Position numbers and translations under genes: made by a program. From positions 2,767,501 to 2,831,500 of the forward strand of contig JALGQZ010000005.1 of assembly GCA_023105745.1 (NCBI GenBank): DNA of 64,000 nt, read 5' to 3'. The DNA comes from Austropuccinia psidii (Eukaryota; Basidiomycota; Pucciniomycetes; Pucciniales; Sphaerophragmiaceae). How positions within the stretch are numbered: position 1 is the first letter of the stretch; every line of letters begins with the position of its first letter. Below the pieces are notes generated by a model. It searched no databases and was not told the DNA's origin. It saw nothing but the letters and a program-made list of their open reading frames with translations. Positions 306-29,365 of this stretch are shown here, piece after piece.

Positions 306-310
306 ATAAA

Positions 311-1732: not shown

Positions 1733-1735
1733 TTT

Positions 1736-1751: not shown

Positions 1752-2312
1752 TTTTTTTTTTAACTTTTTGGACCTTACAAGTAAGTCTTTTCTCTTTTTA
1801 TGACTTATTAACACATTGTTTTATCTTTTTTAGGCGTAATTTCCATTTAAATATATATATTTTATATATTTTTATCTTTTTTCATATACTCATATTATAA
1901 AAGAGTATTTTTCACGTGGCTAATACCCACTGAAAATAATTATTTTTGGCGTGTTTTGTATATAAAAACACATCAGCCATCAATAATTCCTGTATTCTTG
2001 ACTGAATAAGGACACCTCTGACTGAAAAAACATCAGTTGAGGTGTGGATTAAGTGTATTGTTGACTCAATAACACTTGTACAGAATACACTTGAAAACCA
2101 CAAGTGTATCTGTGGGATACTGGCACACAAACAGTGTGACAGGGCACCATAAGCTGTATTTTTGACGTGAAATTGTTAATTCAATTACACTGTCATTATA
2201 CAAGGACATATTGTAATAATATACAAGCCCAGAGGCCATTCTTACACGTGCAAAACCAGCCTTATAAGAAGTCTTAACTGACATAAGTCCTCTTTTTCCT
2301 GTCTTGATTCAG

Positions 2313-3381
2313 TGGAAGAAAACTACATCCCACTTGAAACCCAGTCACAGGCCAACACACCAGTGACACCCTCAGAACCAGAGGGCAGCAAGGGTAAAGG
2401 AAAAAGGCTTAGTGAAGGCCTCATTACAGCCAAGAAGTGGACACCAATAGCCACTCAGAGGAGTAGAAAACCACGAAACTCTGCTTCAATACAAGGTAAA
2501 CCAACCTTAACCACTTGTACAGGGAAGATTACAATTATTAACCCAGTTGTAACCTCCAAAGGCAAACTGCCCAAATCAGCAGATAACAAATTTGTACAAG
2601 GCACATTCAAAGGTAAATACCCTAAGAACATAAAGTTTTTGACTGCTTGCAAACACTGATATGTCCCCTGCATACCTCAGAGACCTTGGCTTCCAAAGGA
2701 ACCAGCCAGAGGATAGAGCAGGAATGTCTAGAACCAGAAGACCTGAAAGAAGACACATTGGACACAGTGGTGGATGGCAAAACAATGAGGGAGATAATAT
2801 CAACCTTGCCATTCACACTCCAATTCAACAGAAACCTCAAACCAGAGGACTGGAAGGATATGGATCAAGTTCTTCAAATCCACCAACTCCTCAAAGATTT
2901 GTTTCAATGGAGCATGGACAACAAGAGGTTCAACCTAGCAACTCACTGGGCAGAACTGGGATCAAGTTGCCAGAAGATCTGTCTCAAAGAGATAGACTTC
3001 AAAGACCTTATGGTAATCACCAAGGGTTGGAATCCTACCAGGCAGCACAGACTCCTGGAGGCAAGGGCACAGAGGATAAGGGAGAATCAAGCCACTATCC
3101 AAGCTATAGAAGAACAGTTAACCCAGACAGGGCCTACTCAGATTCCTTCAGGTTCACAAGGAGCATGCCAAATCAGCTCTCCAGTGGCTTCACACCATTC
3201 AGAAACCAGCAGATCAGTGGCCAAGAGTCACCATTCTTCACAATTCCAGGAAGTTTCCAGGAGAAGACAAGGCAACAAGGGCAAGAACAAAGCCTCCTTC
3301 AACCAGAGGAGGAAAGAGTCAGACCCCATGATCCAGAAGCTGTTAGATTTGGTAAAAGAAGTACACAAGAACCAGAAGTAG
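2313..3381 (+). CDS. Spliced accessory ORF of element A, overlapping gag in the +1 frame
   Basis: Proposed exons 2313-2612 and 2681-3381, about 333 aa. The upstream exon follows an acceptor (TTGATTCAG) and begins TG GAA GAA; a candidate upstream exon ending in A at 1780 (donor GTAAGT at 1781) would create the ATG at the junction. The second intron, 2613-2680, runs AAAG|GTAAAT to ACCTCAG and joins in phase 1. The second exon is open to 3381 in the +1 frame relative to gag. It carries a KGWNP motif and an SPVAS motif, both at equivalent places in the overlapping ORFs of B (GWHP, APVAS) and C (GWNP, APVAS), and ends in a short charged helix. I recognise no known domain. The frame is seen; splicing and expression are inferred. 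Confidence 0.55.
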
Positions 3382-6300
3382 TTGTAAACCACTCTAGAAT
3401 CAGTAGTCCTAGTAATAGAAACATTACCCCCACTCAGACTGAAAATAATATTATCACATCTGAGAGTAACATCAACAGTGACACACTGTGGTTACAAATG
3501 TCCCAATATGCTGAGCAATCTGCAAAGCAGGCTACAGAATTTGCAGCTGCCCAAGAGAGGATGAGAAAAACTCAAGCCTCATTGGAGCAGATAGTTAAAA
3601 ACCTTCAGGAAGGATATGCTCAACTGAGCAAAGCCTCTGAAGAAACCAACAAGAGACTGAATCAAGTCTCTGAAGAACAACACCATAGTAGCAGGGACAG
3701 GGAGTGTCTGAACCAAGACATCAACAAATTGTTTGATGCCTACCATAGCTTAAAGCCCCAACCACAAGGCCAAGCCATGGAGAATCCATATCAACCAGAT
3801 GACATCAAACCAGATGCCATGTTGTTGAATAAGGCAAGATCTCCATCACAATACCAGGATGGAGATGGCATGTCTTATTCAGAGAAGGAAGCCTTGAAAC
3901 AGCTTCCTGAGGCCTCAAACTGGCCCAAATTCTCTGGATCAGGAGAATATGATCATATGGAACTCATAGATTATATTGATGGACTCTTCATTGATGTACC
4001 AAGCATACCAGATTACTGGATTACTGCTAGACTGAATACTGCATTTAAAGGTCATGCAAGTATATGGTACACTGAAATGAAAGAAATCCATGGCAGAAGA
4101 AATTGGCCATGGTGGAAGAGTCAAATAATCCAAAAGTAGAGTAATGGAACTTGGATATGGCAAAAGACCATGTCATTTGAAAATGACAAATACTCTGTGG
4201 AAAAAGATCCATATGAGTGGTGTCTTAGACAGTCTAAAAGACTTAAAGCCATTGATCCTCAAATGAACATTCAAATGAGGAATCATAAACTTCTGACACA
4301 ACTGCCAGGAGAACTAGAGCATGCAGTAAAGTGCAGATGCAACCAAAATTGCACTCTAGATGATATAGCCAATACCTTACAAGACATAAGGAAAAGGACT
4401 AATATAGGGAAATTCACCCCATATAGAAGCAGTGGTTTCAAAGAGAAACAACCTTTCAGGGTGGAGTTTAAAGACAAACCCAGAGAAAGAGTGGCAGAAG
4501 TGGCAAAGAAGAAGAATTCTTGTCACAACTGTGGTTCAACAGACCACTATGCCAACAACTGTCCAAAAGCAAAGAAGAAAGTCTATGCTATAGAAAAAGT
4601 CCCTGAAGAAGAACCTCCAACAGAAGATTCTGAATCAGACTCTATGGGTGATGCCATCAGAGAACTATCTGATGATGATCAAGACCCAAGAGAGGAACTT
4701 CTAGTGGAATACCAAGAGGAAACCCCATTGGAAATCCAGGATATACAGTTGGAAGCAGGCATGCCACAAGACACTCCCAACAAGAATTTGTGTAAACATA
4801 CACAAGATGCACAAACATTCCTGGTTACACCAACCAAAGGAATGGCATACATACATGGAACAGCCACAAAAATGAATGTATGTATTGACAATGCTCAGCA
4901 TCCACTGATCATTGACAGTGGAGCACACTGCTCCATAGTGGCCAGAAATTATCTGGATAACCACTTCCCAAACTGGGAAAAAGAACTCTTGCCCACCAGG
5001 GCAAAGAACTTTAAGAGTGCATCTGGAAAGATGACCTCTATTGGGACAATTATCAAAGAGATAATTATACCCCACAGAAAAGGTAATATCAGACTCAACC
5101 CAGAGTTTGTAGTGCTTGAAGATTCCCACATCCAAGGGTTTTTACTGGGAACAGATTACCAGAGGATGTATGGCATAGATATTTACAATAGTAAAAATAG
5201 GCATATTACCATTGGTACTAACAAGGAAAAAAAATTTTCACTTGATATATACCAGATATCTTCTCAGGACCCACTGGAAGAACTTCTGAAAGAATTCAGA
5301 GAGGGACAGTTTAGCACTACCCTCACCAGTAAACAAAAGTTAAGTTTACTGAAGATGCTGAGGAAGAATAGACCAGCATTTGCCATTGGTGAAGAACCAT
5401 TAGGCAAGATCAAAGGCCATGATATAGAACTATATCTGGATGTGGAAAGGCCTTATCCACCCATGTTAAGGAGACCTCCTTACCCAGCAAGTCTGGAGAC
5501 CAGGAAAGAGATTGAGAAACATATCAATGAACTCCTGGACATGGATGTCATTAGAAAGATTGGACATAATTAAATAGTGGAAATCACCACTCCTGTCCTA
5601 ATCACCTGGCATGATGGCAAGTCTAGATTGTGTGGAGATTTCAGAGCCCTGAATAACTACACAAAAGCAGACAGGTACCCTATACCAAGGATACCTCATG
5701 CCTTGGATAAACTAGCCAAAGCCAAATACATAACCAAGATGGATTGTATGAAAGGCTTCCACCAAAATGGAGTTAAACCAAACTCCATGAAATTACTCAG
5801 AATTATATGCCATATGGGCATATATGAGTACACCAGGATGCCATTTGGCATCAAGAATGCACCAGCCCACTTCCAAAGGATGATGGACACCATATTTCAA
5901 GAAGAAATAATGGAAGGCTGGATGGTAGTGTATATTGATGATATCATTATATACTCAGAGACATGGGAATACCATGTACAATACATAGACAGAGTGCTAA
6001 GTAAATGTACACCCATCAATCTGAAAATTTCACTTAAAAAGTGTAATTTTGGCCAACAAGAGCTACTAGCTCTAGGACACAAAGTCTCAGGACTTAGTCT
6101 GGCAATTGACCAGAACCAAGTAGCAGCAGTACTGCAAAAGCCAGTACCAAAGAACATCAAAGAGATCCAATCTTTCCTTGGATTTGCTAGCTACTATAGA
6201 AACCACATCAAAACCTTTGCTCACATAACTAGTAGTTTATACAAGTTATGCTCAAAGGATGTAGTTTTTGAAATAACCAAGGAAAGGAGGGATGCATATG

Positions 6301-8516
6301 AGAGGATCAAATATGAACTCACAAATGCACCTGTGCTCATCTTGCCTGACTTTGAACTACCATTCAAGTTATATATAGATGCAGCATGCAGCCAAGGCTT
6401 GGGAGCAGCCCTTCACCAAAGACAAATTGTGGATGGTGAACCAAGAGAAGGTGTAATATGTTACATCTCTAGGCAGCTGAAAGATTCAGAAGCCAGGTAT
6501 GGGGCCACCCAGACAGAATGTCTATGTCTAGTCTGGGCTCTAGAGAAACTCCATTATTATTTGGAGGGTGCAGTCTTTGAAGTCTACACAGATTGCACAG
6601 CCTTGAAGTCTTTACTAAAAATGAAGACTACAAATAGACACATGCTGAGATGGCAAATAGCTATCCAGGAGTATAGAGGGAACATGACCATCATATACAA
6701 GGAAGGTAAAAGCCATACCAATGCAGATGGCCTTAGCAGATGGCCACTGGACAATGTCAAAAGCAATCCAGCTTATGACCCTGAAGTTGCTGCAAAAATT
6801 CCTATCCGTTTTATGGAAATAAATAGGAAAAAGAACTGCAGATTCTCTGAATGGGCACCAGGGAGTGGTACCCTTGACAGTGGAAACACTGATTCAGAAG
6901 GGACAGAAACCCCCATACTGGGAATAAGTTCCTCAGAACTGCACAATGAATTTTTCAATGCAGTACTGAAATCTTATGCTAAACACAAACAGTGTAGCAT
7001 ACTACTCCAACTCCTTCAACAAAAATACAGGAGCCCAGAACTGGAAACCCAGCTGGAGGAACCCTGGTTGAGGGCCTATAAGGACAATAAATTCTTCCTT
7101 ATAGATGGCCTGATTTATCACAGAGATAAGCACACCAGTGCACTCACAGTGATAGACAGAGACCACATCTCTTTAATCCTGCAGGAATGCCATGACTGCC
7201 CCTACATGGGACACATGAGTGAAGACAGGACTAAAGAGAGGGTAGCAAGCACAGCTTGGTGGCCCAAGTGGGAACAAGAGTTGAGTGAATACATCAACAC
7301 TTGTGAAAGATGCCAAAAGGCAAATAGAAAGCATGGGAAGAAATATGGGTTGCTTCAACACATAGAAGAACCCAAACACCCATGGGAAACCATCAACATG
7401 GACTGGGTCACAGGACTTGTCCCAGGAGGCAAGGAAAACTACAATGCCTGCCTAATCATAGTAGATAGGTTCAGCAAGAGCATGAGGTGTCTACCATGCC
7501 ATAAAGAGGACACAGCCATGGACACTGCTCTGTTATTTTGGAATAACATCATATCCACCTGTGGAGTCCCTAAGATCATAATTAGTGACAGGGACCCAAA
7601 ATTCACATCTGAATTTTGGACCAATTTATATGACATGCTAGGCACCAAGCTTGCTTTTTCCACAGCTTACCATCCACAAACAGATGGCCTAGCTGAGAGG
7701 ATGATCCAAACAATGGAGGACATCCTCAGGAGGTTCTGTGCCTATGGCATGGAATACAAGGACCATGAGGGATATACCCATGATTGGGTAACCCTCTTAC
7801 CAGCAGTCCAACTGGCTTATAATACAAGCCAGCACTCTACCACAGGGAAAACACCTGCACTGGTAGAGAAAGGGTGGAATCCCCTTTTACCTGTGGATCA
7901 CTTGAAGAAAAATCTTCTGACCATCCACCCCACAGCCAAAGATTTCCATGATATGTGGAAGAAAGCCTGTGATACTGCTGCCAAATGCATAGCTGAGGCC
8001 AAAGAGTATAATAAGCAGAGGTGGGACAAATCACATATGGAACCTGACTTCAGGGAAGGGGACCAGGTGTTAGTGTCTACACTAAACTTTAACAATCTCA
8101 AAGGACCCAAGAAAATGAGAGACTCATTTGTAGGGCCCTTCACTATCATTAAGTTGATAGGGAAGAATGCAGTAGAGGTCAAGCTCACTGAGGAGTTTTC
8201 TAGGAAACACCCAGTCTTTCCAGTAAACCTGGTCAAACCATACTTCCAAACAGAAGAGGATAAATTCCCCTCCAGGAAGAAAAACATCACTCCATCAGAA
8301 ATAGTGGAAGTAGAAGACTCTCCTGGACCTGTGAGTAAAATCATCAGGGCCAGAAAAATAAGACTCAATGGGAAGGATCAGAGACAATATCTAGTCAGAT
8401 TCAAGAACCAGACAGCTGACAAAGACAAATGGTTGGCAGAGGATGCCATACCAGATGGGAACCTCCATTTAAGGAGATTCAGAGCCTCTAGGAGAACTGA
8501 ACAGTCTCATCATTGA
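2661..8516 (+). pseudogene. gag-pol: Gag-Pol polyprotein of element A with two nonsense codons
   Basis: One reading frame runs from the ATG at 2661 to 8516, broken only by TAG at 4137-4139 and TAA at 5571-5573. Element B has Trp and Glu at the equivalent places, so both are single-codon nonsense changes. Order: gag with a coiled region and a YDHMELIDYIDG block, zinc knuckle CHNCGSTDHYANNC near 4530, protease IIDSGAH near 4912, RT with [12 protein letters not shown] and an intact YIDD near 5932, RNase H (YIDAACSQG near 6375), integrase with the zinc-binding HHCC region near 7200-7320 and catalytic D (NMDWVTG), D (SDRDPKF) and E (LAERMIQ), then a C-terminal chromodomain-like stretch (QYLVRFKNQ). 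The original start lies inside the candidate intron of the accessory ORF. Apart from the two stops, every enzymatic motif I checked is present. Confidence 0.9.
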
Positions 8517-8529
8517 TGAGCCTTTTTTA

Positions 8530-8540
8530 GAGGGAGGGTA
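8530..8540 (+). promoter_or_regulatory. Polypurine tract of element A
   Basis: GAGGGAGGG directly abuts the 3' LTR start. This is the expected place for the plus-strand primer. Confidence 0.8.
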
Positions 8541-9981
8541 TGTCAGCCTGTGACTCAAAACCAGAGCACAAGCATGACAGCCAAAATACCATAAACCAAT
8601 GGTATAGCCAAAATACCACCAAAACATGGAGCTGAGCCAAATTAGCTCAAAAGGTATCAAAAGAAAGAGGAAACTCACCTCTTCCTGAAAATATAAGTCC
8701 CATCACCATAGGACAAGAAACAACAAAGTTATGCCTGCTCAAAGTTATTGCTGAGCATAAACCTTAATTTTCACCTCTCATCTAAAATCTAGAAGGAAAG
8801 GCTTAACCCCATCAAATGGGTATTCAAAATGAAGCTCTAAGCCAGGGCTATCCAATGGTACCAGCCAAACTGAGCTAGCACCAGTATTACTTGAGTTATG
8901 GTCAAATTCAGACCAAATAAGGGTGAACAAAACATTCACCTCTCATCTAACTTTTACAGTTTTAGTGTGAGATACCTAAAGTGGGGTCTTTTTGGAAAGA
9001 GCACAATCAGGGCTATCTGATGGTGCCATTCATTTCCTCATAACTCAACTACAACAGAAGTTATTGGCCAAACAAGCTTAATACAGCTTTTTGACCAGAC
9101 CATGCCAATGTACAAAAATACTTGTACATAGGATAACTTTGTCATATTTAATGATAACCATGTCAAGTTGGGTACCATTGTGTAGAGCTCATACAGGGCT
9201 ATTCAATGAACCAGCTTTGAGCTTGATATCTCAAAAGCTGACAGAGTTATGACCATTTTAAGGTCAAAATCCCACCTGCTGTCAGATACAGCCTTACCGT
9301 GGGATAATATCCCATAACCATGAATATGAGGTGTCAAATAGATGAAGAAGCATGTTTTTACTTCAATACCTCATATTTCATTCAATACTGGGGTCCCATA
9401 CAGTTTCTGTACAGCATTCTACGCGTCATACACGTCAGAATCAGGCTGTGAGGTCCCCAGATGAAAATTTTCACCCTGTATTGGTGAAAACTGCCCAGAT
9501 GTGGTTTCAAAACCACATCTGAGCCCAATACAGGGTATACAGGCTGTTTGCAAACCACAAGCCTGTCCTGGAGAGTGAAAAATCTTCACTTCCTCTACGT
9601 GGAAAGGTCTAGCAGCCTTTCCACCTCAATTTCAGGATAAAAGGAGGGCTTTTCACAGCCAAAAACCTTTCCTCATCCTGCTCTTGAATAACCTACGTAG
9701 TAAACTGTCAAAAAACAGTTTTACTCTTGGTTAAATAATCAGGTATACTCTTAATTTAAAATATTGTAGTCTTTATTATTGTAATCCAACAGGTAAAGCT
9801 GCACCCAGGGCTTTCAACAGCGCTCACCACCACTATATCTTTATAGTAAAGCCCTTTGAATCTTAAATTAAATCATTTATTATCAATCTTATCATCTTTT
9901 AAAACTATTTTTACCATGTCACAGTCATAGTTAAAGCTTGTAAATACTCATATACACCTTTATCATAGACTCAGCCTGACA
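8541..9981 (+). repeat. 3' LTR of element A
   Basis: 1441 bp, followed by target-site copy ATAAA at 9982-9986. It differs from the 5' LTR at roughly 15 bases plus 19 extra bases near 9369-9387. Confidence 0.95.
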
Positions 9982-11114: not shown

Positions 11115-12941
11115 TGTAAGGTGTGGATATGAAACTTTGATTAAAAATCAAGTACTTTTCCTGTCCTCAAAATTTGTATAAGGTAAAATTCAGTTAAAAA
11201 TAGTATGAAATATTATTTTTAAGAGAAAACACGCCAATTTTATTGTTTATAACTTTATTAGTATAAAACAATAATATTATAAAAATTTATTGTTTTACCA
11301 ACAATAAAAATTTATCCAAAAAATACTCTACAAGAGATATTTTAAGGCTACAAAAGAAATTTCTTCAAGAGCAATTTCAATTGGAATTAATTGAGCAAAG
11401 AACTGCAAGCAATTAATTAAAGAACAAAGTCTTTAAAAAGAATATTAAAGAGAAAACACGCCCAAAAGTGACCAGAGTGAATTTGGAAACAAAGTGACAA
11501 AGTTAACAGTGATGAAAGATGCTTTAATTCACTTTTGGGGTGGTTCAGGGGTAAAAATGATTATAAGAGTTACAAACAATGATTATAATGATTTTTTCAC
11601 GTGGTTAAAAGGATTAAAATGATTTAAAAGTGGTGGTTGGAATCTTTGATTGATTGGTTTAACAGTTTTAAACTAATTAATAAAAGGAAAAGATTCTAAC
11701 ATGAAGAGAAAAGTGGGGCAAAGAAGACATTCTTTTATAGCCATCAATTCTCTTACTCCAAAAGTAAAATTTACTCTTGTCAGTCGTGAAAAACAGTCTG
11801 ACAACAGAAAAGCCAATTATGGCATCATTGAACCCTGGTTTAGACCAAAAAGGGCTGGTTTAAGCCATTTTTAGCCATTTTAGACCCTTAAATCAGCCAT
11901 TACTATAGCAATACCAGGCCTAGAGCCTTCAAAACACGTCAGAATGTGTGTCAGAGTCGTAGAAACCAGTTAAAACTGTTTTTACTCCGATGGTTTTATC
12001 TTAAGGGTAGTTTTACCCTCTTGGCAACAGCTAAAACTACCCCAGTTGGTATCAAAACCTCATCATCAATTGAGTCCACAGACCCTGTAACTCAATTCCA
12101 GGCCAAAAGTGATGAACTTTTGCGTGAATTTTGACATCCCACGCCTGTCAGCAAGGATTTTGGGGGTCTAGCTCCCCCTTAGAGCTGGAGTTCCTTTTCC
12201 CCCCAAATTTAATCTTTCCAATTTATTTTTCCTTTAATTCCTCATCATGTATTATACTTATAATTTACACATGTAATTCAATTCAATTGTACAGTACAAT
12301 ACAGTAATAATTGACACCTCATATGTAAATCAAAGTTCACCTATGTAATACACGCGCACATTTTGACATTTCAATTGAATTCAATTGAAAATACTTTAAT
12401 TCCTCATAACTTCTAAACTAAACACAACACCTCAATTTTAACACAAAAATTGATGGTTAACACCACATGTGGTGTGAATTAAATTAAGGTTTTGAGGATT
12501 TTCAACTTTTGTATTGAAAATACTAAAAACTTAATTTAAGCTTATTTAGAGTTGAGTTACAAAAATTTCACTCAGAGGTGACCCCACCTGATTTTTTATG
12601 AGGAATCCAATGGTGAAATAAAATTTATATGTTTATTTATTGGATAAAAAGTTATAATAAATTTTATTTAACTTTTTTCCAAATTTATTTATTTTTTCAC
12701 AATTTTGTTAAAATTTCATTTTTACTTAAATTTTTCAAGTATAAATGTAATTTTATATTTACAAAATTTAAAGTAATTTTATTTTTAAATTATAATTAAT
12801 TTTTTATTTTTAATATAATTTTATATTTATATTTTTTATTTTTATTTTAATAATATAAATAAATTTATTTTATTTATATTAATATGTTATTTTTTATATT
12901 TGTGGTCTTTTGGGTATATGAAATTACCTCTAAGGCTCACA
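11115..12941 (-). repeat. 3' LTR of element B
   Basis: 1827 bp. On the element strand it begins TGTGAGCCTTAGAGG and ends CACACCTTACA. It abuts the polypurine tract on its right. Confidence 0.97.
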
Positions 12942-12958
12942 TTCCCTCCCCCTAAAAA
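12942..12958 (-). promoter_or_regulatory. Polypurine tract of element B
   Basis: TTCCCTCCCCCTAAAAA on the plus strand, i.e. TTTTTAGGGGGAGGGAA on the element strand, touching the 3' LTR. Confidence 0.85.
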
Positions 12959-12964
12959 AGAATA

Positions 12965-15900
12965 TTACTTTGTAATATTGGTGTTTCTAGTGTGTCTGAA
13001 TCTCCTCAGGAGTTTGGTGGCTTCTGGTATATCTTTCTCTTCTAACCATTCATCCTCACAAGTTGGGTCACTGTACCTAACAAGGTATTCCCTTACTTTC
13101 TTGGTTCTTAATTTCCTTTCTTTAAGAACTTTGGTTATTTTCTTAGTACCAGATGTCTCAATAGGAGGTATAACTTGGGGAATCTTATTCCTCAAGGGAA
13201 ATTTCTCAGCATCACTAGATTTGTATGGCTTTATCAAGCTTACTGGAAATGTAGGGTGCTTATTGCTAAGTTCTTCAGATAACTCTACTTCAACAGCATT
13301 TTCTCCATGAAGGGCCTTAATCACAAAAGGTCCTGCAAAGGAGTCTTTTAACTTTTTACATCCTTTGATGTTATTGAAGTTAGTAGTGGATACAAGAACT
13401 AGGTCCCCCACTTTGAAATCTGGAGTTGCATGAGATTTATCCCATTTGTCTTTAGCATATGCAAAAGAGTCCTCCATGCATCTCACTGCATGCTTTCTAG
13501 CTTTGTCTAGCATTCCTTTGAAGCTAGCAACTGTGGGATGTATTTCAATTAAGTCTTTCCTCAAGGAATCTTGGGGTAACTTGGGGTTCCATCCTTTTTC
13601 TAGAATAGCAGGAGTCTGATTGGTACTGGAATGGATTGATGTTTTATATGCTAATTCCAGTGCTGGTAACAGAGTACACCAATCATGGGTAAATCCATCA
13701 CAATCTTTGAATTCAAGGCCATATGCACAAAATCTTCTCACCATGTCCTCTAAGGTTTGGATCATTCTTTCAGCCAGACCATCAGTTTGTGGGTGGTAGG
13801 CTGTAGAGAAAGACAGTTTTGTGCCAAATAATTGGTGAAGATTTGTCCATAGAGCTGAAGTGAATTTGGGATCTCTATCACTGATGATATTTGTAAATAT
13901 CCCAGTCCATGACACTACTCTATTCCATATCAGAAGAGCTGTATCCATGGCTGTATCATCTTTATGACATGGTAAAAAGATTGGAGTTTTACTGAATCTG
14001 TCCACAATTACTAGGCAAGCATTATAGCTCCTGTCACCTCCTGGTGGTAGGCCAGTTACCCAATCCATATGGACAATTTCCCAAGGTCTGTTTGGTTCTT
14101 GGATTTTCATCATATTTCCAAGTCTTTTGCCAGTGGATTTATTTGCCTTTTGGCATCTGTCACAGGTTTTGCAATATTCTGCAACATCTTTTTGCCACAT
14201 TGGCCACCATATGCAGGTCTTTACTTTCTCTCTTGTTCTGTCCTCAGAAAGATGTCCTGAAAAGGGACTATCATGGCATTCTTTCAGTACAAGATTGATC
14301 AATGACCTGTCTACAACTGTCATGACACATGTGTGCTTGGTTCTGTGGTAAATTATACCATCCAGTAGGTGAAATCTCCCTTCATTATAAGATTTTCTCC
14401 ATACTTCATCCAAGGCATGTATTAGAGAGTTGTCTTTACAGTCTTTGTTAAGTAATTGGCATAAGATGCTACAATTCTTATCTTGAGTGTAACTATTTCT
14501 GACTTCTTCAAAGAAGGTGGTGTTCAAGTCTGTAACACTTATTCCTTCTATTGGAATTTGTGGTGAAGCTTCTTCTGGAACATAAGCAGGATTATCAATG
14601 TTATTTGGTAATGGCCATCTGCTTAGTCCATCTGCATTCTTATGAATATTCCCATCCTTATGAACAATAGTCATATTGCCTCTGTATTCTTGTATGGCTA
14701 TTTGCCATCTGAGCATGTGTCTGTTAGGTGTTTTCATGTTCAAAAGTGATTTCACAGCTGTACAATCTGTTATTACTTCAAAAACACATCCCTCTAAGAA
14801 ATAGTTCAATTTCTCTAAGGCCCAGACAAGGCATAGACATTCCATTTGACTTGCTCCATATCTGGCTTCAGTTGGTTTGATTTGCCTGGATATGAAACAT
14901 ATTGGTCCTTCTACAGGTTTGTCATTTATGATCTGAACTTGGTGAAGTGCAGCACCTAGTCCATCCCCTGATGCATCAATATACAGTTTGAAAGGCAATT
15001 TAAAGTCTGGCATCAGTAAGAGTGGAGCAGTGGTCAATGCTTCTCTTAGAGACTCAAAAGCTTTGACTCTGTCAACAGTCATCTCAAATACTGTGTCTTT
15101 GTCACACAACTTATAAAGTGGTCTTGCTATGGATGCAAAGTCTTTAATGTGTTGCCTGTAATATCCTGCAAAACCTAAGAATGACTGAATTTCCTTCTTA
15201 TTCTGAGGCATGGGTTTTAACAATACTGCTGCAACTTTGTTTTTATCAATTCCAAGGGACAAACCAGATACAACATGTCCTAGTGCCTTAAGTTCTTTAA
15301 ATCCAAAATGACATTTCTTCAAGGAGATTTTCATGTTTACTGATTGGATTTTTGTCAAAACTCTTGATAATCTGTACATGTGCTCCTCCCAAGTCTTTGA
15401 ACAGATAATAATGTCATCAATGTAAATGATTAACCATCCTTCTGAGAGTTCTTCAGGGAAGATTTCATTCATCATTCTTTGGAAGTGTGAAGGTGCATTT
15501 TTGATACCAAAGGGCATCCTTAAGTATTCATACACTCCACAATGAACAATAATTCTCAAATATTTTCTTGCTCTTGGTGTTACTACATTTTGATGGAATC
15601 CCTTAAGGGCATCCATAGTGGTTATATACACTGCTTGAGATATTTGAGTAAGGGCAATTTGGATTTTTGGTATTGGGTATCTGTCTGGAACAGTGTAAGT
15701 GTTCAGAGCTCTAAAGTCCCCAACCATTCTGGATTTTCCATTATGCCACGCCACTATGACTGGTGTAGTTATTTCTACTTCCTCATTGTGGCCTACTTTT
15801 CTTATTACACCAAGGTCTAGGAGTTCTTTGATATGAATTTCTAGAGCTTCTCTTGATTTTGGACTTGCTGGATAAGCAGGTCTTCTTAAGAGTGGTGGAT

Positions 15901-18889
15901 AAGGTCTCTCAATGTTAAGAATGATGTCAACTTCATGACCAATAATTGCTCCCAGGGGTTCTTTGTCTGTAGCAAATGCTCCTCTGTGGTCATACAAAAG
16001 GGAAGAAAGTTCATTTTCTTGCTTATCAGTCAGATGAAGGCTTATTTCAGCCTCACTTAACTGTTCAGACTTGAATTTCTCTAACTCTAAGTTGACTGGT
16101 GATACTTTGTTTACTGTAATTTGTCTTTTAAAGGGTAAAAAGGCAAATTTCTGGCGCTTATTGTCTCCAATTGTAAAGTATCTGTCTTTGTTATTATGTA
16201 AATCTATCCCATACATGATTAAATAGTCATTTCCCAATATAAAATGGGTACTAGAGCAATTTTCCATAACAACAAATTCAACTGTGATCCTTAAATTCCC
16301 ATTTATGTGTGGGAATATGACATTGGTCTCAAAGATTCCTAATGCTTTCATTGGGTTACTTGCACTGTTGAATTTTATACCATCAATTGGTAACAATTGG
16401 TCTTCAAAATTTGGTACACAAGTCTTAAGAAAAGATTTTCCAACACAAGAGCAGAAGGCTCCTGGGTCAAGCAAAAGTTTGGTGGGTTTGTTATCAATCA
16501 CCACTTCTGTTATACAGGAGTTACCAGCTGTATAACCTTTTCCTCTGTTTGGTTTTGTCTTCATAAGTTGTGCATCTTGAACTTTTGATAAATCAACTTG
16601 ACCATTGCTCAATTGTGGTAAGTGGGAATAAGATTCCATGATGTCAAAAGTGGCATTGATATTTTCTATATCTTTTGAAGATTCAGAGAATATGGATGAC
16701 TTATCATCTGAATTGTCTTCAATTATGTCTTCTTTTTCAACATCTGGTTCTTTTTCAATGTCAATTTCATTGATTTTCCCCCTTTTTGGACATGTATTGG
16801 CTAAATGGGTGGTGCTTTGGCAAATATGGCATTTTCTGACTGTATCTGCAGATTTATATTTAATATTACTAGAATTTTCTTTGGGGTTTTTGTCCACAGA
16901 ATCTTTCCAAGGTGTATTAAACCTTGTTTTAAGATTAACCCTACTAGAACCAATTTTGGTTCTGGTGGTTACTTCTTCTAGTATATTGATAATATCCTCT
17001 GCTGAAGATTGTTCAGTAGTCCTGCTTTTGACAGCATGCTCTAAGTCACCTCCACATTGTCTCAGAATTTTTCTATGGATCATAAATTCTGACATGTCAG
17101 GATATAATGCTGTTAATCTGTCCTTTTGTTGGCAAAACCATGGTAAAGCTTTGTCTTTATCAGCATTAAATTTGGCAGATTCAAAGGCTGTTTCAACTTT
17201 AAACCTCCACGCATCATTTGCCCATTTGTTGATGATTTGGGTTTTCCACCAAGTCCAACTCTGGTGTCCATGTGCTTGTCTTATTTTGATGTACCATCTG
17301 TGAGCTGATCTGGTAAACAAGGTGTTAAACCTGGCTGTTACCAATCTGTCTGGTAATTCAAAATCCTCTTTGATCATGTCAATACCTCTAATGAATTCCA
17401 TATGGTCATACTCTCCTTCACCACTGAAGTGAAGCCATTCTTTAAGTTTTGGAACTTCTTTCAAGAGTGCTTGGCCCATTGATGGTTCCAAGTTATGAAA
17501 AGAAGTGGATAATTCATTTTTTAATTGTGAATTATCAGGATCCAATACTTGTGGATTTGAAATTCTTGTGCCCTCATTTTGATTTAGAGGTGTAGACATT
17601 CTTGGTAAGGTGTTCAGTAATTGTTCAATGTCATTCATTTTACTGTTGCTACACCTTTGGGAATTTCTGTATTCATGTTGGAAGCTTTGTATTAAATTTA
17701 TTACTTCAATTTTATACATGTCTTCTTTATGTGTAAGTTCTTGCCATAACTCTGTCTGTCTTGTATTATCAGCAGTGACTTGATTCAATTTCATTGATAA
17801 TTTTGATACTTCTTCTTGTGAAGCATCAAAACACTTTTTCAAGGCAATGGTATATGTCTTTACTTCAGTAAATGAATTTGAAATGTCATCAAGGACTTTC
17901 TTGTTATCTGTCTTGATAATATTTATGGCTTGTTTAATTCTTGTTTCAATCATGTCATCAATATTGAATTTAGAATATTTATCTGTTAATTCTTTAATAA
18001 TGGCAGATTGTTCATTTATTTTAATGTTAGAAGAATTGTCATTATTAGAATTTTTAATTGTTCTTAAAACTTTTTCAAAACACATAAGTGTTTCATTAAT
18101 TTGGCACAGACTCAGGTTGTTTGTTTTAATGTTGTTACAAATGGATTCATTTTTATCAGAAAGATGTTTTTTCACGTCATTTATAGCATCATACAACTCT
18201 GGGATGGAATCAAATATATCAGAAATCATTTCTGGAACTTTAATCTGGCTTCCTCCTTCTTTTGTAATTCCATCATGGTTCTGGCCATCTGAAATACATT
18301 TTCCATGGCATCCTGTTGAATCTTTGGAATCCTGTAGCCCTGGCTGTAAGGTTTTGGAGCTTGTGCCTTCCCTTTGCCCTTGTTTGGAGGTTGTGGCTGC
18401 TTTTTCACGTTGGAATTGCTGCTGCTGGCCACTGGGGCTGTTTTTGGCACTGGTTTTGGTGGTGGAGGGTTGTTTTTCCTCCATTCCAGTGTCAAAAGCA
18501 TCATGTTTTTCTTCTCCATCAATGGATGCCATCCATTGAGCAATTTGCAAGTGTTGGGATGGCCCAAGAATTTTCTTACTGTCAGGTAAGAATTCATGCA
18601 ATTCTTCCACAGGTCTGCAAGGATCTGGTACTCCTTGAATTGGAGTGCATTGTTGTATGCACTGTGGCTGGCTTTGTATATGTCCACAGAGGCTTGTTGT
18701 GGCGGTGTCAGCTCTTTTTGAAGGTAAAATGGTATTATCAGCTTCAGAATGACCCATTTTAGTTGTTTGGAAGTCATCAACTGACCCTTTTCCTTCTGTA
18801 CCTGGTTGGCCTCTGCCATAATCACGTCTATTACCTTTTTGGGAGCTGCTTGAGGGGTTGTAGCTGGCTCCTGATCTGGTTGAAGGCAT
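12965..18889 (-). CDS. gag-pol: Gag-Pol polyprotein of element B, intact
   Basis: 1974 aa, one frame, no interruption. Approximate positions: low-complexity N-terminus that overlaps the accessory ORF (1-220), helical gag region (240-470), conserved gag block [10 protein letters not shown] (about 500), zinc knuckle [14 protein letters not shown] (about 690), protease [10 protein letters not shown] (about 805), RT with [12 protein letters not shown] and YIDD (about 1156), RNase H (LYIDASGDG, about 1303), integrase zinc-binding region (1545-1580), catalytic D (HMDWVTG, about 1607), D (SDRDPKF, about 1670) and E (LAERMIQ, about 1705), and a chromodomain-like tail ([20 protein letters not shown]). 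The protease triad reads DPG where A has DSG and C has DTG. The ATG at 18889 lies inside the 64-nt candidate intron of the accessory ORF, so only unspliced RNA would carry it. Integration and reverse transcription functions follow from the family. Confidence 0.97.
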
Positions 18890-19137
18890 AATTATGGTTA
18901 AAAAGGCTTAAAATAGTATTTTTACGTCAAAAAACTTACTATTGGCCAAATTTTTAGCTTTCTGAAGGGTATTACTTATGTCCAAGTTAATTAGTTCAGA
19001 AGATATTGGTTCAGGTTGGTTATTTTGAGTCACAATAACAGTGCTATTATGATCAGAATTGACAGTACTGGCAGGGATAATGCTGGTTACTGTTGAGGCT
19101 GTTTCAATGTTTTCTTGTCTTACCACGTTGTCAGACA
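18226..19137 (-). CDS. Spliced accessory ORF of element B, overlapping gag in the +1 frame
   Basis: Proposed exons on the minus strand: 19137-18940 and 18875-18226, about 282 aa. The upstream exon follows an acceptor TTTTAG and starts TG TCT GAC; a 78-nt candidate intron (19215-19138, TATAA|GTGAGG) would put an A before it and create ATG. The second candidate intron, 18939-18876 (64 nt, AATA|GTAAGT to CAACCAG), removes the gag-pol ATG and joins in phase 1. The second exon alone is open for at least 199 codons from an ATG at 18825. Motifs: DIY, MNS, KFL, NGWHP, APVAS, a basic Pro/Lys-rich middle, and a C-terminal helix containing [15 protein letters not shown]. Element C's ORF matches this helix at 24 of 35 positions, more than gag does in its own frame there. 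No known domain recognised. Confidence 0.65.
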
Positions 19138-19345
19138 CTAAAATTAATGAAAAAGCCAATTAATTTAAGTAAAAAAAGGATATTTCAAAAAAAGAAATAA
19201 AAATTTAAGCCTCACTTATAATATGAAAAAAAATTATTTTTTATGGGTTTTTTTAAATTATAAGTATTTTTTATATGTTTTTAAATTTTTCAATATAAGA
19301 AAAAAGATTTAAAAAGAGTAAAAAAATATGTCACAGGTAAAATAT

Positions 19346-19361
19346 CACGGCTGGGCCCCCA
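19346..19361 (-). promoter_or_regulatory. Primer-binding-site candidate of element B
   Basis: Element-strand TGGGGGCCCAGCCGTG, two bases after the 5' LTR. It differs from the A/C motif at only two central bases. Confidence 0.6.
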
Positions 19362-19363
19362 AA

Positions 19364-21190
19364 TGTAAGGTGTGGATATGAAACTTTGATTAAAAATCAA
19401 GTACTTTTCCTGTCCTCAAAATTTGTATAAGGTAAAATTCAGTTAAAAATAGTATGAAATATTATTTTTAAGAGAAAACACGCCAATTTTATTGTTTATA
19501 ACTTTATTAGTATAAAACAATAATATTATAAAAATTTATTGTTTTACCAACAATAAAAATTTATCCAAAAAATACTCTACAAGAGATATTTTAAGGCTAC
19601 AAAAGAAATTTCTTCAAGAGCAATTTCAATTGGAATTAATTGAGCAAAGAACTGCAAGCAATTAATTAAAGAACAAAGTCTTTAAAAAGAATATTAAAGA
19701 GAAAACACGCCCAAAAGTGACCAGAGTGAATTTGGAAACAAAGTGACAAAGTTAACAGTGATGAAAGATGCTTTAATTCACTTTTGGGGTGGTTCAGGGG
19801 TAAAAATGATTATAAGAGTTACAAACAATGATTATAATGATTTTTTCACGTGGTTAAAAGGATTAAAATGATTTAAAAGTGGTGGTTGGAATCTTTGATT
19901 GATTGGTTTAACAGTTTTAAACTAATTAATAAAAGGAAAAGATTCTAACATGAAGAGAAAAGTGGGGCAAAGAAGACATTCTTTTATAGCCATCAATTCT
20001 CTTACTCCAAAAGTAAAATTTACTCTTGTCAGTCGTGAAAAACAGTCTGACAACAGAAAAGCCAATTATGGCATCATTGAACCCTGGTTTAGACCAAAAA
20101 GGGCTGGTTTAAGCCATTTTTAGCCATTTTAGACCCTTAAATCAGCCATTACTATAGCAATACCAGGCCTAGAGCCTTCAAAACACGTCAGAATGTGTGT
20201 CAGAGTCGTAGAAACCAGTTAAAACTGTTTTTACTCTGATGGTTTTATCTTAAGGGTAGTTTTACCCTCTTGGCAACAGCTAAAACTACCCCAGTTGGTA
20301 TCAAAACCTCATCATCAATTGAGTCCACAGACCCTGTAACTCAATTCCAGGCCAAAAGTGATGAACTTTTGCGTGAATTTTGACATCCCACGCCTGTCAG
20401 CAAGGATTTTGGGGGTCTAGCTCCCCCTTAGAGCTGGAGTTCCTTTTCCCCCCAAATTTAATCTTTCCAATTTATTTTTCCTTTAATTCCTCATCATGTA
20501 TTATACTTATAATTTACACATGTAATTCAATTCAATTGTACAGTACAATACAGTAATAATTGACACCTCATATGTAAATCAAAGTTCACCTATGTAATAC
20601 ACGCGCACATTTTGACATTTCAATTGAATTCAATTGAAAATACTTTAATTCCTCATAACTTCTAAACTAAACACAACACCTCAATTTTAACACAAAAATT
20701 GATGGTTAACACCACATGTGGTGTGAATTAAATTAAGGTTTTGAGGATTTTCAACTTTTGTATTGAAAATACTAAAAACTTAATTTAAGCTTATTTAGAG
20801 TTGAGTTACAAAAATTTCACTCAGAGGTGACCCCACCTGATTTTTTATGAGGAATCCAATGGTGAAATAAAATTTATATGTTTATTTATTGGATAAAAAG
20901 TTATAATAAATTTTATTTAACTTTTTTCCAAATTTATTTATTTTTTCACAATTTTGTTAAAATTTCATTTTTACTTAAATTTTTCAAGTATAAATGTAAT
21001 TTTATATTTACAAAATTTAAAGTAATTTTATTTTTAAATTATAATTAATTTTTTATTTTTAATATAATTTTATATTTATATTTTTTATTTTTATTTTAAT
21101 AATATAAATAAATTTATTTTATTTATATTAATATGTTATTTTTTATATTTGTGGTCTTTTGGGTATATGAAATTACCTCTAAGGCTCACA
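19364..21190 (-). repeat. 5' LTR of element B
   Basis: 1827 bp, the same length as the 3' LTR and nearly identical to it. Followed at 21191-21195 by the ATATG target copy. Confidence 0.97.
19981..19990 (-). promoter_or_regulatory. TATA box in the 5' LTR of element B
   Basis: GCTATAAAAG on the element strand, upstream of the presumed transcription start inside the LTR. Position only; the start site is not determined. Confidence 0.5.
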
Positions 21191-24610: not shown

Positions 24611-26636
24611 TGTGAGCCTTTAAGATATGACCACATACCCAATAAGGTCACAAAAAGGATTAATAATAATTATACCTTTAATATAATTATATTAAAATTA
24701 ATTAGAATAATTATACACTAAAAATAATTACTCAAATATACAAAAAATACCATAAATTGGTACTAAAATTGGTTTAACTTAAAAACCAATGAATGAACAT
24801 GTGAAATAAATTATACCATTGGATTCCCCATGGAAAAATACACATATACCACTTTTATGGCATATCTGTAAAGTCAATATTTAAGGAATTATAAGGTATA
24901 ATACCTTATAAAAACCATAAAACCTTATTTATCTCAGAAACTAATGAAACAACATGTGAAATAAATTGTACCAGTGGATTCCCCACAAAAATCCACATAT
25001 AAAACAATTAATAAGCTAATTCCCAAAATCAATACTTAAGGAATTATCCTGAATATATGCACTTTTTTGGTCAACGCATATATTCAGTGATCATAGCTAA
25101 TATCTTCTAAAATATACATGATAGAATGATGAACCAAAAATGAAGTTACCACGTAATTACTGTAAGAACACAGATATGAACTTTATTTTACAAGTTATAA
25201 ACAAGGTTAAAACCTATGATGAAATATTGATAAAAATCAACAGAGCTGTTGACCACTTTGTTGTGAAAGTGCTCCAAACTTAAAAAAAAATACACAGTTG
25301 GATTCTACTAGTTCATTCGTGAAGAATGATGTAATTTTTATTATTAAATTCAGGGTATAACCCCCTGAAATCAAGGTTTGAAGTTTAAAATATTGAATTT
25401 CGACAGAAAAGATGAGTTACAAGAAAAATCATCAAAATTAGAGTTTTGATGATGTAATGAAAGGCTCTTGTCAGCATAATGAGGTTATGTCAGGCTATCA
25501 GAATTCACTCTCTGAATTGCTGTAGCGTGAAAACCTTAAAAGTTATTGAGGATCAAAGTTTGAGCTTAAATTGAGCTGTTATGATCACATACTGTAACCT
25601 TAAATTAAGTTTAACAGTCTTAAGAGTGATAAAATTGGTGAATACTATTAGTTTATGATTAAAACTAATAAAATCCACGAAATTTGGGGTTCTGCCAAGC
25701 CTCTGATGTCATCACACTTAGAGTTATAGTGGTAACTCTAAATAATGGTGCAATAATGATGTAATATGGTTTGATCATGATGTAATCACCCTCAAACCTT
25801 AAAATATTGATCAATTCCAGTGGATATGATCAGTACACGTCTACTAGAAGCCTGTTGGACTCTAGGAGGGAGGTATTTACTATAAATAGAGCTCTTTTTA
25901 CTCTGTTTTCCCCTCAGACGCATCAAAAACATTAAATCAATTAAATAAAAGGTAATTTCTTTATTCTTTAAATATAAAACTCTTATATTCTTAAAGACCA
26001 AAGATCATCTTGTTATTAATCACCATTTTTACGTGATTAAATCAATTCTTTAATTGTTTTTGCTATAAATCTCTCTAAAAAGCTCATTTCCACGTAAAAT
26101 CAAGAAATTTAGTAAATTCTCTTTATTTTTATTGTAAATACAATTTGAAAAGGTTGTATTATATTCTTTTGGCGTAAAATAACTCAAAATTATTATCTTA
26201 AGTGTTAAAAGTAGGTTATTTCATCTTATTATAATAATTTCTCTCTTATTATTACTCATAATAATTCTTATTTAATATAAATAGTATTTATATTAATTTA
26301 TAACTTTAATATTAGTAATATTATTGTTATTAATTGTTTTTTATTTATAAAAAACAATTTTTTACGCCTTTATTATTTGTTGGTAACAATAATAAAGAGC
26401 TTTATAATATATTAATTATTTTATATTAATATATTATTTATAATATTATATTTTTATATAATATTAATTATATTATTATATTTATTTAATAATATAATAA
26501 TTTTACGCCATAATAATAATATTTCTTTATTATTATTATTATTTTAATCTTATTTATTCATTTTATAAGGACATTCAGAGTACAATAAGTAATAAATTAG
26601 TAATTTTTACTTATTGTTTCATAGTCAAACCTTACA
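24611..26636 (+). repeat. 5' LTR of element C
   Basis: 2026 bp, TGTGAGCC...CCTTACA. The 3' third is extremely AT-rich with many ATAATAAT-like runs. It contains about 13 CpG dinucleotides, in contrast with none seen in the coding part of the element. Confidence 0.96.
25881..25888 (+). promoter_or_regulatory. TATA box in the 5' LTR of element C
   Basis: TATAAATA followed about 30 bp later by a pyrimidine-rich stretch (TTTTCCCCTCAGACG). This is a plausible core promoter. The same sequence recurs in the 3' LTR, and a related TATATATAGA box occurs near 46413 in the E LTR. Confidence 0.6.
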
Positions 26637-26638
26637 TT

Positions 26639-26654
26639 TGGGGGCCTGGCCGTG
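26639..26654 (+). promoter_or_regulatory. Primer-binding-site candidate of element C
   Basis: TGGGGGCCTGGCCGTG, two bases after the 5' LTR, identical to the element A motif. Confidence 0.6.
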
Positions 26655-26801
26655 ATATTTACTTAAAAGACCTTTAAAAAATATTCTATTTGGGTTTATC
26701 CATAATAAATTATATTTATAATCATAAAATTATATAATAATTTTATATTTTATTGATTTTAAAAGCTATTGAGGCATTTGGAAAGCAATTGTACTGTCTT
26801 A

Positions 26802-26807
26802 CACGTG
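26802..26807 (+). promoter_or_regulatory. CACGTG box in the element C leader
   Basis: The palindrome lies in a leader block (ACACGTGG followed by TTTTTCACATCC) that also occurs in the minus-strand leader of element F (CACGTG at 47563-47568) and, mutated, in E. It may be a transcription-factor site; only the conservation is visible. Confidence 0.35.
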
Positions 26808-27142
26808 GTTTTTCACATCCTTAGACTTGCAAGAACTTTCTTTGAGTGACTCTAGTGATTAAAAAAGATAATTTATAAATTAAAAATAATTTTTATTATA
26901 ATTTAATTTTATAAGAATCATATTTATTTTTTATTTTATTCTTTAAAAATAAAAATATACATAAAAAATATTAAAAAATATTAAAAACCAATAAAAAAAG
27001 TTATTTTTATTCATTTTTATTCATTTCTTTATTTATTTCATTTTTTTTAAGAGATAAAAGCAATTTCTACGTGGAAAATTGCCATATCTTGCCAAAAATA
27101 ACACTTATTATAAAAAGACTTATATTTATTTGTCTTTTTTAG

Positions 27143-28060
27143 TGTTTGAAGATAACCCAACAGAAGACAACCAAACTACTGTTGAGAGATTGGTGGAAGA
27201 AACTTGTCAAAGTTCTCCTACACCAGTTATCACCAAAAGAAAGAAAGCTAAGAAATTAGACTTTCCAGGGCCCACCATTCAAGACTCTGAAGGTGAGCAC
27301 TTCTTTTTAAATTGCCATAAAAGAATTTTATTCTAAAATACTTTTATTTTTTCTTATTCTTTAATTATGACTACCAGAAGAGGTTCCCAATACTCCATCC
27401 AATCAGATGGAGCTGGACTCAGAAGTAGAATTGATCCCTCAAAAGGGAAAAGAAAGGGCAATATCCCCAGTGGAACAGAATCCACACAAGGAAGTGCCTT
27501 ATCCCAAAGGCAAGTCCCAGAAATGCCCATGATATCTGAGCCTGAATTGGAACTAAGTATGAGTAACTCAAACAGGTACAAATCACATTCAGAGGGCTCA
27601 GATAGACATCTACATGAGCCAGTACAAGCAGTATTACACAGTTTACAAGGACAAAGACTGGGAAATGCTGCCTCAAATACACCAAGGAGTGATGAACTCC
27701 TGGCACATCCTGAAAAAGTTCCTCAAAGAGGAGGAGATAGTGAAATACTCCAATGGATGGAATCCACTGTCATCCAAACCTCAAATCAAAAAAATCAAGG
27801 ATTATCATGCCAAAAAGAGGGAGGCAACCAAGGAAGAAGCCCCAGTAGCTTCTACCAGCAAGCCTCAAGCCAACCCACTTCCCCAAGAAGGGAAGAAGAA
27901 CAAGAAAAAGCATTGGAGGAAACCATATTCCCCAAGCTACAGAATCCCAAGAATCCAAAAGGATGCCATGGACAATGTTTTCAACATGGCCAGAACCTTG
28001 ATGGAATTCAAGGACAAGGAAGAGCAAAGAATGAGACAACCTCATTTCCCAAAGAAATAA
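27143..28060 (+). CDS. Spliced accessory ORF of element C, overlapping gag in the +1 frame
   Basis: Proposed exons 27143-27292, 27378-27509 and 27576-28060, about 255 aa. The upstream exon starts after TTTTTTAG with TG TTT GAA. Candidate intron 27293-27377 (85 nt, GAAG|GTGAGC to CTACCAG) removes the gag ATG at 27367 and joins in phase 1 into the +1 frame. That frame then meets three stops, all inside a 66-nt candidate GC-AG intron (27510-27575, AAAG|GCAAGT to CAAACAG). The last exon is open for 148 codons from an internal ATG at 27614. It has DIY, MNS, KFL, NGWNP, APVAS, a basic stretch and a C-terminal helix containing [15 protein letters not shown], closely matching element B. The second intron is the weakest part; an internal start at 27614 is an alternative. 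Confidence 0.6.
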
Positions 28061-29361
28061 CCTTGTCCAAAGATGTTGTAAATACTTTAACAGAAATTAA
28101 AAATAGTATATTACCTCTAAAAGAAATTAAAGACAGTTTATTATCACTACAAGAAATAAATAACAATTTATCTTCTTTAACAAAAATTGTTGTGCAAAAC
28201 AAGAAAGAAATTGACAACATCAAGTTTATTGTTGAAAATAATAAACCAAAGAATTTAATTGACAATACTCAAAAATTAATACAAGGACAACAAGAATTGT
28301 ATAAATACATAAAAGATATCAAAGATAAGACTTTGACAATCAATTATGATGTGAGTATTGACAATCTTACAGAAAAATTAAATAAATTAAGTATTTATGT
28401 AGAAAAATTTGAAGAAAAGACTTCATCACACCAAAAATTACTTTTGGACCATGTGGAAAAAAGTGATGAAGCAAGAATGCATCTGAAAGATGATATTCAA
28501 AGTGAAATAAGGCTTATTACAGAAAAAATGGATAAAATTAATGAGGCTAACTTAAATATGCCAAAGTTATCAACACCATTTTCTCATATAAGAAGCCCTG
28601 TTAAAACAAAAGAGGAATTGTCAAATCCTTTCATAACAGACTTGAGTCACCAAGACAATAACCAAGTCTTAATGAAGGAAGCACCTCAATTAAAAGAATG
28701 GCCAACATTCACAGGAGAAGGTGAATATGACCACATGTCATTTATTAAAACAATTGACATGTTACAAGAAGACTATGCCATACCAGATGAATTAATCACT
28801 GCAAGATTACATTCATTATTTGAGAAATCTGCAAAAAGATGGTATTATGGCATAAGACAGACAAATGGTAAAAATACCTGGTCTTGGTGGAAACAAGAAA
28901 TAATCACCAAGTGGGAAAATGATGCCTGGAGGTATAAGATAGAAAATGCATTTGAAAACTCTTTCTTTGACCCAGAGAAAGATAAACCTTTAACTTGGTT
29001 CTTAAAACAAGTTGAAAGGCTTAATGCACTGTACCCAGAAATGTCACAGAAGATGGTGCATATGAAAATACTTAAAAAATGTGGAGGGGAACTAGAACAT
29101 GCCCTAAGAAGCAGGTGTATAGAACCATGCTCCACAGAAGAGTATATAAATGCACTAGAAGATATAGTGACAAGGACAAAAATTGGAAGGACTTGGAAAA
29201 AATTGGACATTAAAAGCCCAAATAAACCATTTATCAAGAAAGATAAATCAAAAGAATCCTTTAAACCCAATACATCCAACAATAATGAGCAAAGAAAATG
29301 CCATAAATGTGGAGGTATTGGACACTTAGCCAATAATTGCCTTAAAAGCAAAAATCAATGA
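27367..29361 (+). CDS. gag: Gag of element C
   Basis: 664 aa from an ATG that lies inside the candidate intron of the accessory ORF. The N-terminal 230 residues are low-complexity, Ser/Gln/Pro-rich and dual coding. Next come Asn/Ile/Lys-rich helices likely to be coiled coil, the [10 protein letters not shown] gag block near residue 455, and a zinc knuckle [14 protein letters not shown] at the very end. The frame stops at 29359-29361, five bases before the pol frame opens. In element B, gag and pol are one continuous frame at this point, so C has lost or gained bases in the run CTTAAAAGC, or shifts +1 there during translation. Confidence 0.9.
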
Positions 29362-29365
29362 AATT

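Follow-up and report, generated by a model that had tools for sequence, protein, structure and literature searches.

A candidate splice switch between Gag-Pol and a second, overlapping protein in Ty3/gypsy retrotransposons of the rust fungus Austropuccinia psidii

Can one retrotransposon transcript in a rust fungus give either Gag-Pol or a second, overlapping protein, depending on whether it is spliced? The question is raised by a stretch of 64,000 nucleotides (nt) of Austropuccinia psidii (assembly GCA_023105745.1, contig JALGQZ010000005.1, positions 2,767,501 to 2,831,500), hereafter the window, which carries three elements with long terminal repeats (LTRs), here called A, B and C. Transposable elements, chiefly Ty3/gypsy, are described as the majority of the A. 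psidii genome (PMC8063080, PMC12774611), and A, B and C belong to this group by their LTR pairs and by a Pol domain order of RVT_1, RT_RNaseH, Integrase_H2C2 and rve. An earlier reading of the letters alone (the sequence-only reading) proposed that an intron holding the gag start codon is retained for Gag-Pol and removed for an accessory protein. Our analysis makes it likely that one transcript has two mutually exclusive first products, Gag-Pol from unspliced RNA and a regulator from spliced RNA. The layout recurs in a fourth family, represented by copy L042, in the 1.015 Gb of genome that was searched.

The arrangement is common to A, B, C and L042. In each, the gag ATG lies inside a short candidate intron, intron 2, and the first AG 3' of that ATG leads into the second frame (coordinates in Table 1). 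For B, the 64-nt intron and the enclosed ATG given by the sequence-only reading are exact to the base, and removing the intron produces a phase-1 join and a frame of 282 codons that runs to 18226 in the +1 frame of gag. Element A has the same arrangement, with a joined frame of 333 codons. For C, the intron, its phase and the ATG held up as well, but the frame then stays open for only 101 codons. GT-AG pairs able to join the two frames occur often (A, 31 of 155; B, 30 of 108; C, 0 of 48). The junction by itself is thus weak support, and independent evidence was therefore sought. The stronger evidence is comparative and consists of the codon-phase divergence of the overlap, the third-position excess in the exon upstream of intron 2, the stop-free double frames and the recurrence of the layout in L042.

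In the overlap of the two frames, a DNA-only alignment of B and C (1789 of 1933 aligned columns, those in equal phase) differs at 62% of gag first positions, which are third positions of the second frame, against 44% of gag third positions. Downstream of the second-protein stop the order is reversed, with 42% at gag position 1 and 55% at position 3. The same flip was seen for B-L042 and C-L042, and the bootstrap intervals of all three pairs lie above zero in the overlap and below zero just downstream. When the second protein was kept and its codons were shuffled synonymously, the gag frame remained stop-free in 0, 0 and 1 of 2000 shuffles (A, B and C, respectively); with gag kept, the second frame remained stop-free in 78, 130 and 27 of 2000, the test in C covering 27562-28059 only. 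This pattern indicates that both frames are held open, the gag frame strongly and the second frame moderately. Homologues of the second protein were found in 13 of 20 10-kb stretches taken at fixed round positions, where each Pol query matches 16 of the 20, and database matches number 994 for A-type and 596 for B-type second proteins. Judged by these signatures, the second frame looks like a real protein.

Exon 2, immediately upstream of intron 2, is the predicted first coding exon of this protein. In the predicted frame, eight copy pairs pooled differ at 7.4% of first, 8.8% of second and 17.8% of third codon positions (P 9e-9, an approximate value because the pairs share references and relatedness and are not independent), and position 3 is the highest in all eight. 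On this codon-position pattern exon 2 evolves as coding sequence, in exactly the frame that joins exon 3. No ATG occurs in exon 2 in any frame in A, B or C, where 2.2, 4.3 and 1.2 are expected, and in A, B, C and L042 the exon begins AG/TG, the slash marking the splice site. Given this start and the lack of an ATG, the start codon of the second protein is probably assembled as A/TG by splicing of the leader, from a donor ending in A. Candidate leader introns in A and B are listed in Table 1, and L042 has a candidate donor at oriented position 2361 (CCAACAA/GTAAGT); additional A/GT words are present in each family. The ATG-depleted leader described below, the AG/TG start and the probable spliced start codon are new relative to the sequence-only reading. 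Its splice-dependent accessory protein is well supported by sequence evolution and its retrovirus analogy is apt, but its one-intron version of C is not open and the start codon was left unexplained.

The leader itself is poor in ATG. Between the end of the LTR and gag there is one ATG in 928 nt in A, none in 474 nt in B and none in 730 nt in C, against expectations of 13.5, 6.0 and 8.4, and none of 1000 dinucleotide shuffles reached so low a count in any of the three. The last LTR ATG lies 1411 (A), 1062 (B) and 1541 (C) nt upstream of gag; these longer ATG-free stretches start by definition after an ATG, and the claim of depletion rests on the leader test. Within them CAT and the permutations of ATG are without comparable depletion, with TAG and GAT running low in A and C. 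Five decayed copies (L033, L036, L037, L044 and L046) do have ATGs in the leader region, as would follow from a loss of selection. For B, which has a single TATA-like word just ahead of the edge of the stretch, a transcription start close to that edge is plausible; it is unproven for A (no such word), C (six, the first at 25881 inside the ATG-free stretch) and L042 (three).

These LTRs and leaders hold other features. Further C-type LTR copies, 78-82% identical, lie at 45323-47413, 59293-57457 and 37082-36588, and the first of them has 11 ATGs in 46360-47413, the counterpart of C's ATG-free stretch. The word CACGTGG or ACGTGG recurs in leaders, near 1913, 26803 and 27069 and near oriented position 3169 in L042; between C and L042 it sits in a longer shared block. 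The primer-binding-site word of L042 occurs twice, at oriented 2886 and 2989, spaced by 103 nt.

On unspliced RNA, ribosomes would scan the long, nearly AUG-free leader to the gag AUG and make Gag-Pol. Splicing out the leader intron would assemble an AUG from A/TG at the start of exon 2, and splicing out intron 2 would remove the gag AUG; in the group of B, C and L042, a short intron 3 that codes for Gag if retained would probably be removed as well. The second protein would then regulate the use or export of unspliced RNA, comparable to CERV of the Cer1 element discussed below. If intron 2 is retained, the exon-2 frame ends at 2657 in A, 18910 in B and 27334 in C. The gag ATG follows after 1, 18 and 30 nt, respectively, and reinitiation on gag would be possible.

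Intron 3 bears on the stops in C. C and L042 have their second-frame stops at a shared position, and a candidate phase-1 intron covers the stops in both; B has a homologous candidate that is open in both frames. After its removal the second proteins of B, C and L042 have 258, 255 and 286 residues and align end to end, and 24 of the 78 gene models from A. psidii MF-1 that span the B segment lack it. Because of its donors, intron 3 is less certain than intron 2. Two other accounts of C were rejected. A single-intron C fails since its joined frame is closed by three stops, at 27530, 27554 and 27560. Private damage does not fit the finding that, of 40 genomic places scored for the 918-nt C region (27143-28060), 30 including its own match it with a rounded identity of 100%. 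The C family seems to have multiplied with its stops, which fits intron 3 and is no proof of it. The same 30 of 40 identical places point, as an observation apart, to a very recent burst. An exact match to the spliced B intron-3 junction was found at two genomic places (G000:C2:43879854 and G000:C7:52110509), and none to its reversed control; the two are possible footprints of spliced RNA.

Other copies keep the signals. In all 22 B copies compared, the window's own excluded, AG/TG, the leader donor, the intron-2 GT and AG and the gag ATG are kept, and there is no ATG in the 800 nt ahead of exon 2 or from there to gag; these copies were picked by similarity over the same region at 96-99% identity, and are weak evidence. 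Among seven other copies read, AG/TG was kept in five, the intron-2 donor in six and the acceptor in six, the exceptions being L044, which has AG/TA, L033, which lacks the acceptor, and L046, in which no upstream exon was found. In each of three protein searches, all of the best 120 matches listed carry the name A. psidii MF-1. The MF-1 gene predictions were examined through the best 120 listed for each type. Among those reaching at least eight residues into exon 2, the junction is crossed without a gap by 40 of 55 A-type and 24 of 35 B-type models. Fifteen B-type models sit at the exon-2 boundary, of which 13 are partial with the codon after TG as first residue and two begin MS. The models favour the exon-2 boundary; for A, they do not settle the start codon.

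Several observations weigh against the proposed switch. Profile comparison detected no homology between A-type and B-type second proteins, and a spliced mRNA would have a 3' untranslated region of several kb. The candidate leader donor of C (26588, A/GTAATA) is weak, the leader donors of C and L042 both lie inside the LTR, and one ATG precedes gag in A (1800, in the leader) and in L042 (2766, in the LTR), both within candidate introns. The intron-3 donors are GC in C, GTCAGT in B and GTCTGT in L042. For A-L046 the overlap shows the same direction of constraint with an interval, -0.005 to 0.185, that only just includes zero, L046 being decayed. Segregating sites among B copies show codon biases in the expected direction that are not significant (P 0.06-0.16), and codon positions of change inferred from MF-1 proteins gave an identical pattern in overlap and control and were uninformative. 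Exon 2 is not reached by 65 (A) and 85 (B) of the 120 listed MF-1 models, which are themselves predictions. Of 19 A-type models at the exon-2 start, four have Met at that codon, four are partial like the 13 of B type, and 11 have V, L or A at it, these 11 having other predicted upstream exons or read-through.

Some of these points could be read in favour of a +1 protein translated from RNA that stays unspliced, with ribosomes either leaking past the gag AUG or initiating internally, and with exon 2 a noncoding leader and the intron signals accidental. The 85 B-type models that reach fewer than eight residues into exon 2 would agree with this, as would several B-type models of lengths near 197 that begin at an internal exon-3 Met, whose ATG in B has A at -3 and G at +4. 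We nevertheless hold this account to be very unlikely: exon 2 evolves as coding sequence in exactly the joining frame, despite having no ATG and preceding the gag AUG, and the second frame of C and L042, if left unspliced, runs into stops at a shared position. That the open frame is decayed or accidental and yields no product is hardly credible at all: long +1 frames can arise by chance over codon-biased genes, and 4-7% of A and B synonymous shuffles that keep gag leave the frame open, but three family pairs show constraint in the second frame that changes sign just downstream, and homologues occur in 13 of the 20 fixed-position stretches.

Splicing could also occur and yield something else. 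Exon 2 might be joined to the gag frame by an acceptor 2-5 nt downstream, giving an N-terminally extended Gag instead of or besides the second protein; suitable AGs exist at +2 nt in A (2682) and +5 nt in B (18871) and C (27382), and three A-type MF-1 models examined in full (P0010, P0022 and P0085) do join the gag frame. These AGs are not the first after the gag ATG, which in all four families gives the second frame, and most of the constraint on the overlap falls on that frame. Exon 2 appears in at least six of the best 120 gag-frame models (P0010, P0022, P0028, P0033, P0085 and P0118; the first residues of all were read, and 11 in full) against 55 of the best 120 second-frame models, and we regard an extended Gag as highly improbable. 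The main rival to a regulator concerns what the spliced protein does: it may be a structural product, a distinct partner in assembly or RNA binding that adds to the supply of particle protein, like the spliced Gag of EVADE and BARE. Gag-Pol is a single frame in B, and in L042 the frame stays open over 1900 codons. Neither has a frameshift or stop, and extra structural protein would therefore need another source; the second protein is also basic. On the other side, it is not Gag, since the Gag region with the putative zinc knuckle comes further downstream, in the gag frame; that it has no credible domain does not decide the matter. A structural role appears to us rather unlikely.

We thus return to a spliced regulator. 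The predicted second protein has about 255-333 residues, mainly in the +1 frame of gag, and is basic (pI 9.3-9.6); those of B and C are 38% identical (E 8e-31). Searches of PDB and Pfam gave nothing credible in the way of a known domain or structure, and a scan of viral contigs gave no relative. Several B-type relatives of 18229-18873 carry the UniRef label 'No apical meristem-associa...', a domain not listed in a Pfam scan of 53 alignment members. As a genome that holds introns needs export, control of the use or export of unspliced RNA is, by analogy, the most likely role. A wider proposal, which we put forward tentatively and with more doubt than confidence, is a Rev- or CERV-like feedback across an entire lineage of Ty3 elements in fungi: splicing would build the start codon of the regulator and delete that of Gag, the regulator would be overprinted on the N-terminal part of Gag, and the AUG-free leader would serve scanning of the unspliced genome, making this a third independent origin of spliced regulators of full-length RNA beside retroviruses and Cer1. 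If the switch is real, many 'hypothetical' proteins would be retrotransposon products, probably regulators, and not fungal genes, and fungal elements would regulate their full-length RNA much like complex retroviruses.

The features are collected in Table 1. The gag-pol frame of A has stops at 4137 and 5571, and in C gag and pol are in separate frames (29330-29361). In a Pfam scan a zf-CCHC zinc-knuckle match in C (E 5e-4) scores 20.4 bits against a cut-off of 20.8 and a related knuckle in B falls under the cut-off; in A a CX2CX4HX4C motif is visible beyond the end of the piece scanned. Elsewhere in the window, BLASTN against itself shows a tandem array of about 590 nt (51928-52514) with a 6-base period and more than 99% likeness, and 41651-43739 holds remnants of another element with reverse transcriptase and integrase, whose identity to Pol of the three elements is 27-33%.

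Table 1. Elements and candidate features of the splice switch (LTR identities from BLASTN of the window against itself; slashes mark splice sites)
Feature	Coordinates	Strand	Description
Element A	310..9981	+	LTR to LTR; LTR identity 97.6%
A candidate leader intron	1781..2312	+	CTTACAA/GTAAGT ... ATTCAG/TG; donor after 1780; contains the sole leader ATG (1800)
A exon 2	2313..2612	+	Begins TG; without ATG
A intron 2	2613..2680	+	68 nt; GTAAAT 2613 ... CAG 2680; gag ATG 2661 inside
A exon 3	2681..3381	+	Predicted second protein, +1 frame of gag
Element B	11115..21190	-	LTRs 11115-12941 and 19364-21190; identity 99.95%
B TATA-like box	19982..19988	-	5' LTR; no other TATAWAW match in its last 1000 nt; 38 nt ahead of the ATG-free stretch
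B ATG-free stretch	18890..19950	-	Start set by the last LTR ATG, 19951
B candidate leader intron	19138..19215	-	78 nt; A/GTGAGG...TTTTAG/TG; donor after 19216; removal would assemble ATG
B exon 2	18940..19137	-	Predicted first coding exon of the second protein; begins TG; without ATG in any frame
B intron 2	18876..18939	-	64 nt; GTAAGT at 18939, CAG ending 18876; gag ATG 18889 inside
B exon 3	18226..18875	-	Predicted second protein, +1 frame of gag; stop at 18226
B candidate intron 3	18714..18785	-	72 nt; GTCAGT...AAAAAG; open in both frames; homologous to the C and L042 candidates
B gag-pol	12965..18889	-	Single unbroken frame; ATG 18889
Element C	24611..35287	+	LTR to LTR; LTR identity 98.6%
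C exon 2	27143..27292	+	Begins TG; without ATG
C intron 2	27293..27377	+	85 nt; gag ATG 27367 inside
C exon 3 region	27378..28060	+	Second frame with stops 27530, 27554, 27560
C candidate intron 3	27510..27575	+	66 nt; phase 1; GCAAGT...AAACAG (GC-AG); covers stops 27530, 27554, 27560
L042 candidate intron 3	oriented 3731-3793		63 nt; phase 1; GT-AG; removes second-frame stops

How do these elements compare with systems already known? In complex retroviruses, multiply spliced RNA encodes small basic proteins (Tat/Rev, Tax/Rex) in overlapping frames and unspliced RNA encodes Gag-Pol, and the lentiviral Rev regulates the use or export of unspliced RNA. The division between spliced and unspliced RNA, a basic protein and overlapping frames would be common to both; the position over gag, the fungal host and a role that is predicted set the present elements apart. 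Among LTR retrotransposons, copia is also an element with a spliced short Gag, and Ogre is a Ty3/gypsy element with an intron in pol. The review PMC12786077 describes a functional intron in the Ogre elements of plants, and a short Gag isoform from spliced RNA, with the gag start kept, in EVADE and BARE1. Ogre thus shares with our elements an intron within an LTR element, placed elsewhere than at the gag start. In EVADE, BARE1 and copia, as would be the case here, splicing divides one RNA into two protein programmes; unlike in them, the spliced RNA here would lose the gag start and frame, since in all four families the gag ATG falls within intron 2.

Additional open reading frames are known in fungal LTR elements according to the same review (PMC12786077). 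The sequence-only reading knew of no description of the present arrangement for fungal Ty3 elements, and no report was found among the papers listed by literature searches, the review's cited papers on extra fungal reading frames lying outside what was read; a parallel does exist beyond fungi, as Cer1 of C. elegans makes the protein CERV from spliced RNA (PMC10309623). CERV is the closest published parallel found. According to the account of Cer1 in PMC10309623, CERV is needed for export of unspliced RNA and has no obvious homologue beyond nematodes. Cer1 and the A. psidii elements are both Ty3/gypsy and share the use of unspliced RNA for Gag-Pol, with a spliced route that is predicted here and described in Cer1 as a multi-exon mRNA for a separate protein, one exon being out of the gag frame (PMC10309623). 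CERV shares its first coding exons in frame with Gag (PMC10309623), whereas here exon 2 lies upstream of the gag ATG and no residues are shared; in B and C exon 2 happens to share gag's phase but is cut off by a stop, exon 3 being +1. Also unlike in Cer1, the second protein is confined to the 5' region, where it is read across gag in the +1 frame; its start codon seems to be created by splicing, and the gag AUG would be spliced out. The function of CERV has been shown (PMC10309623), and that of the second protein is proposed by analogy with it.

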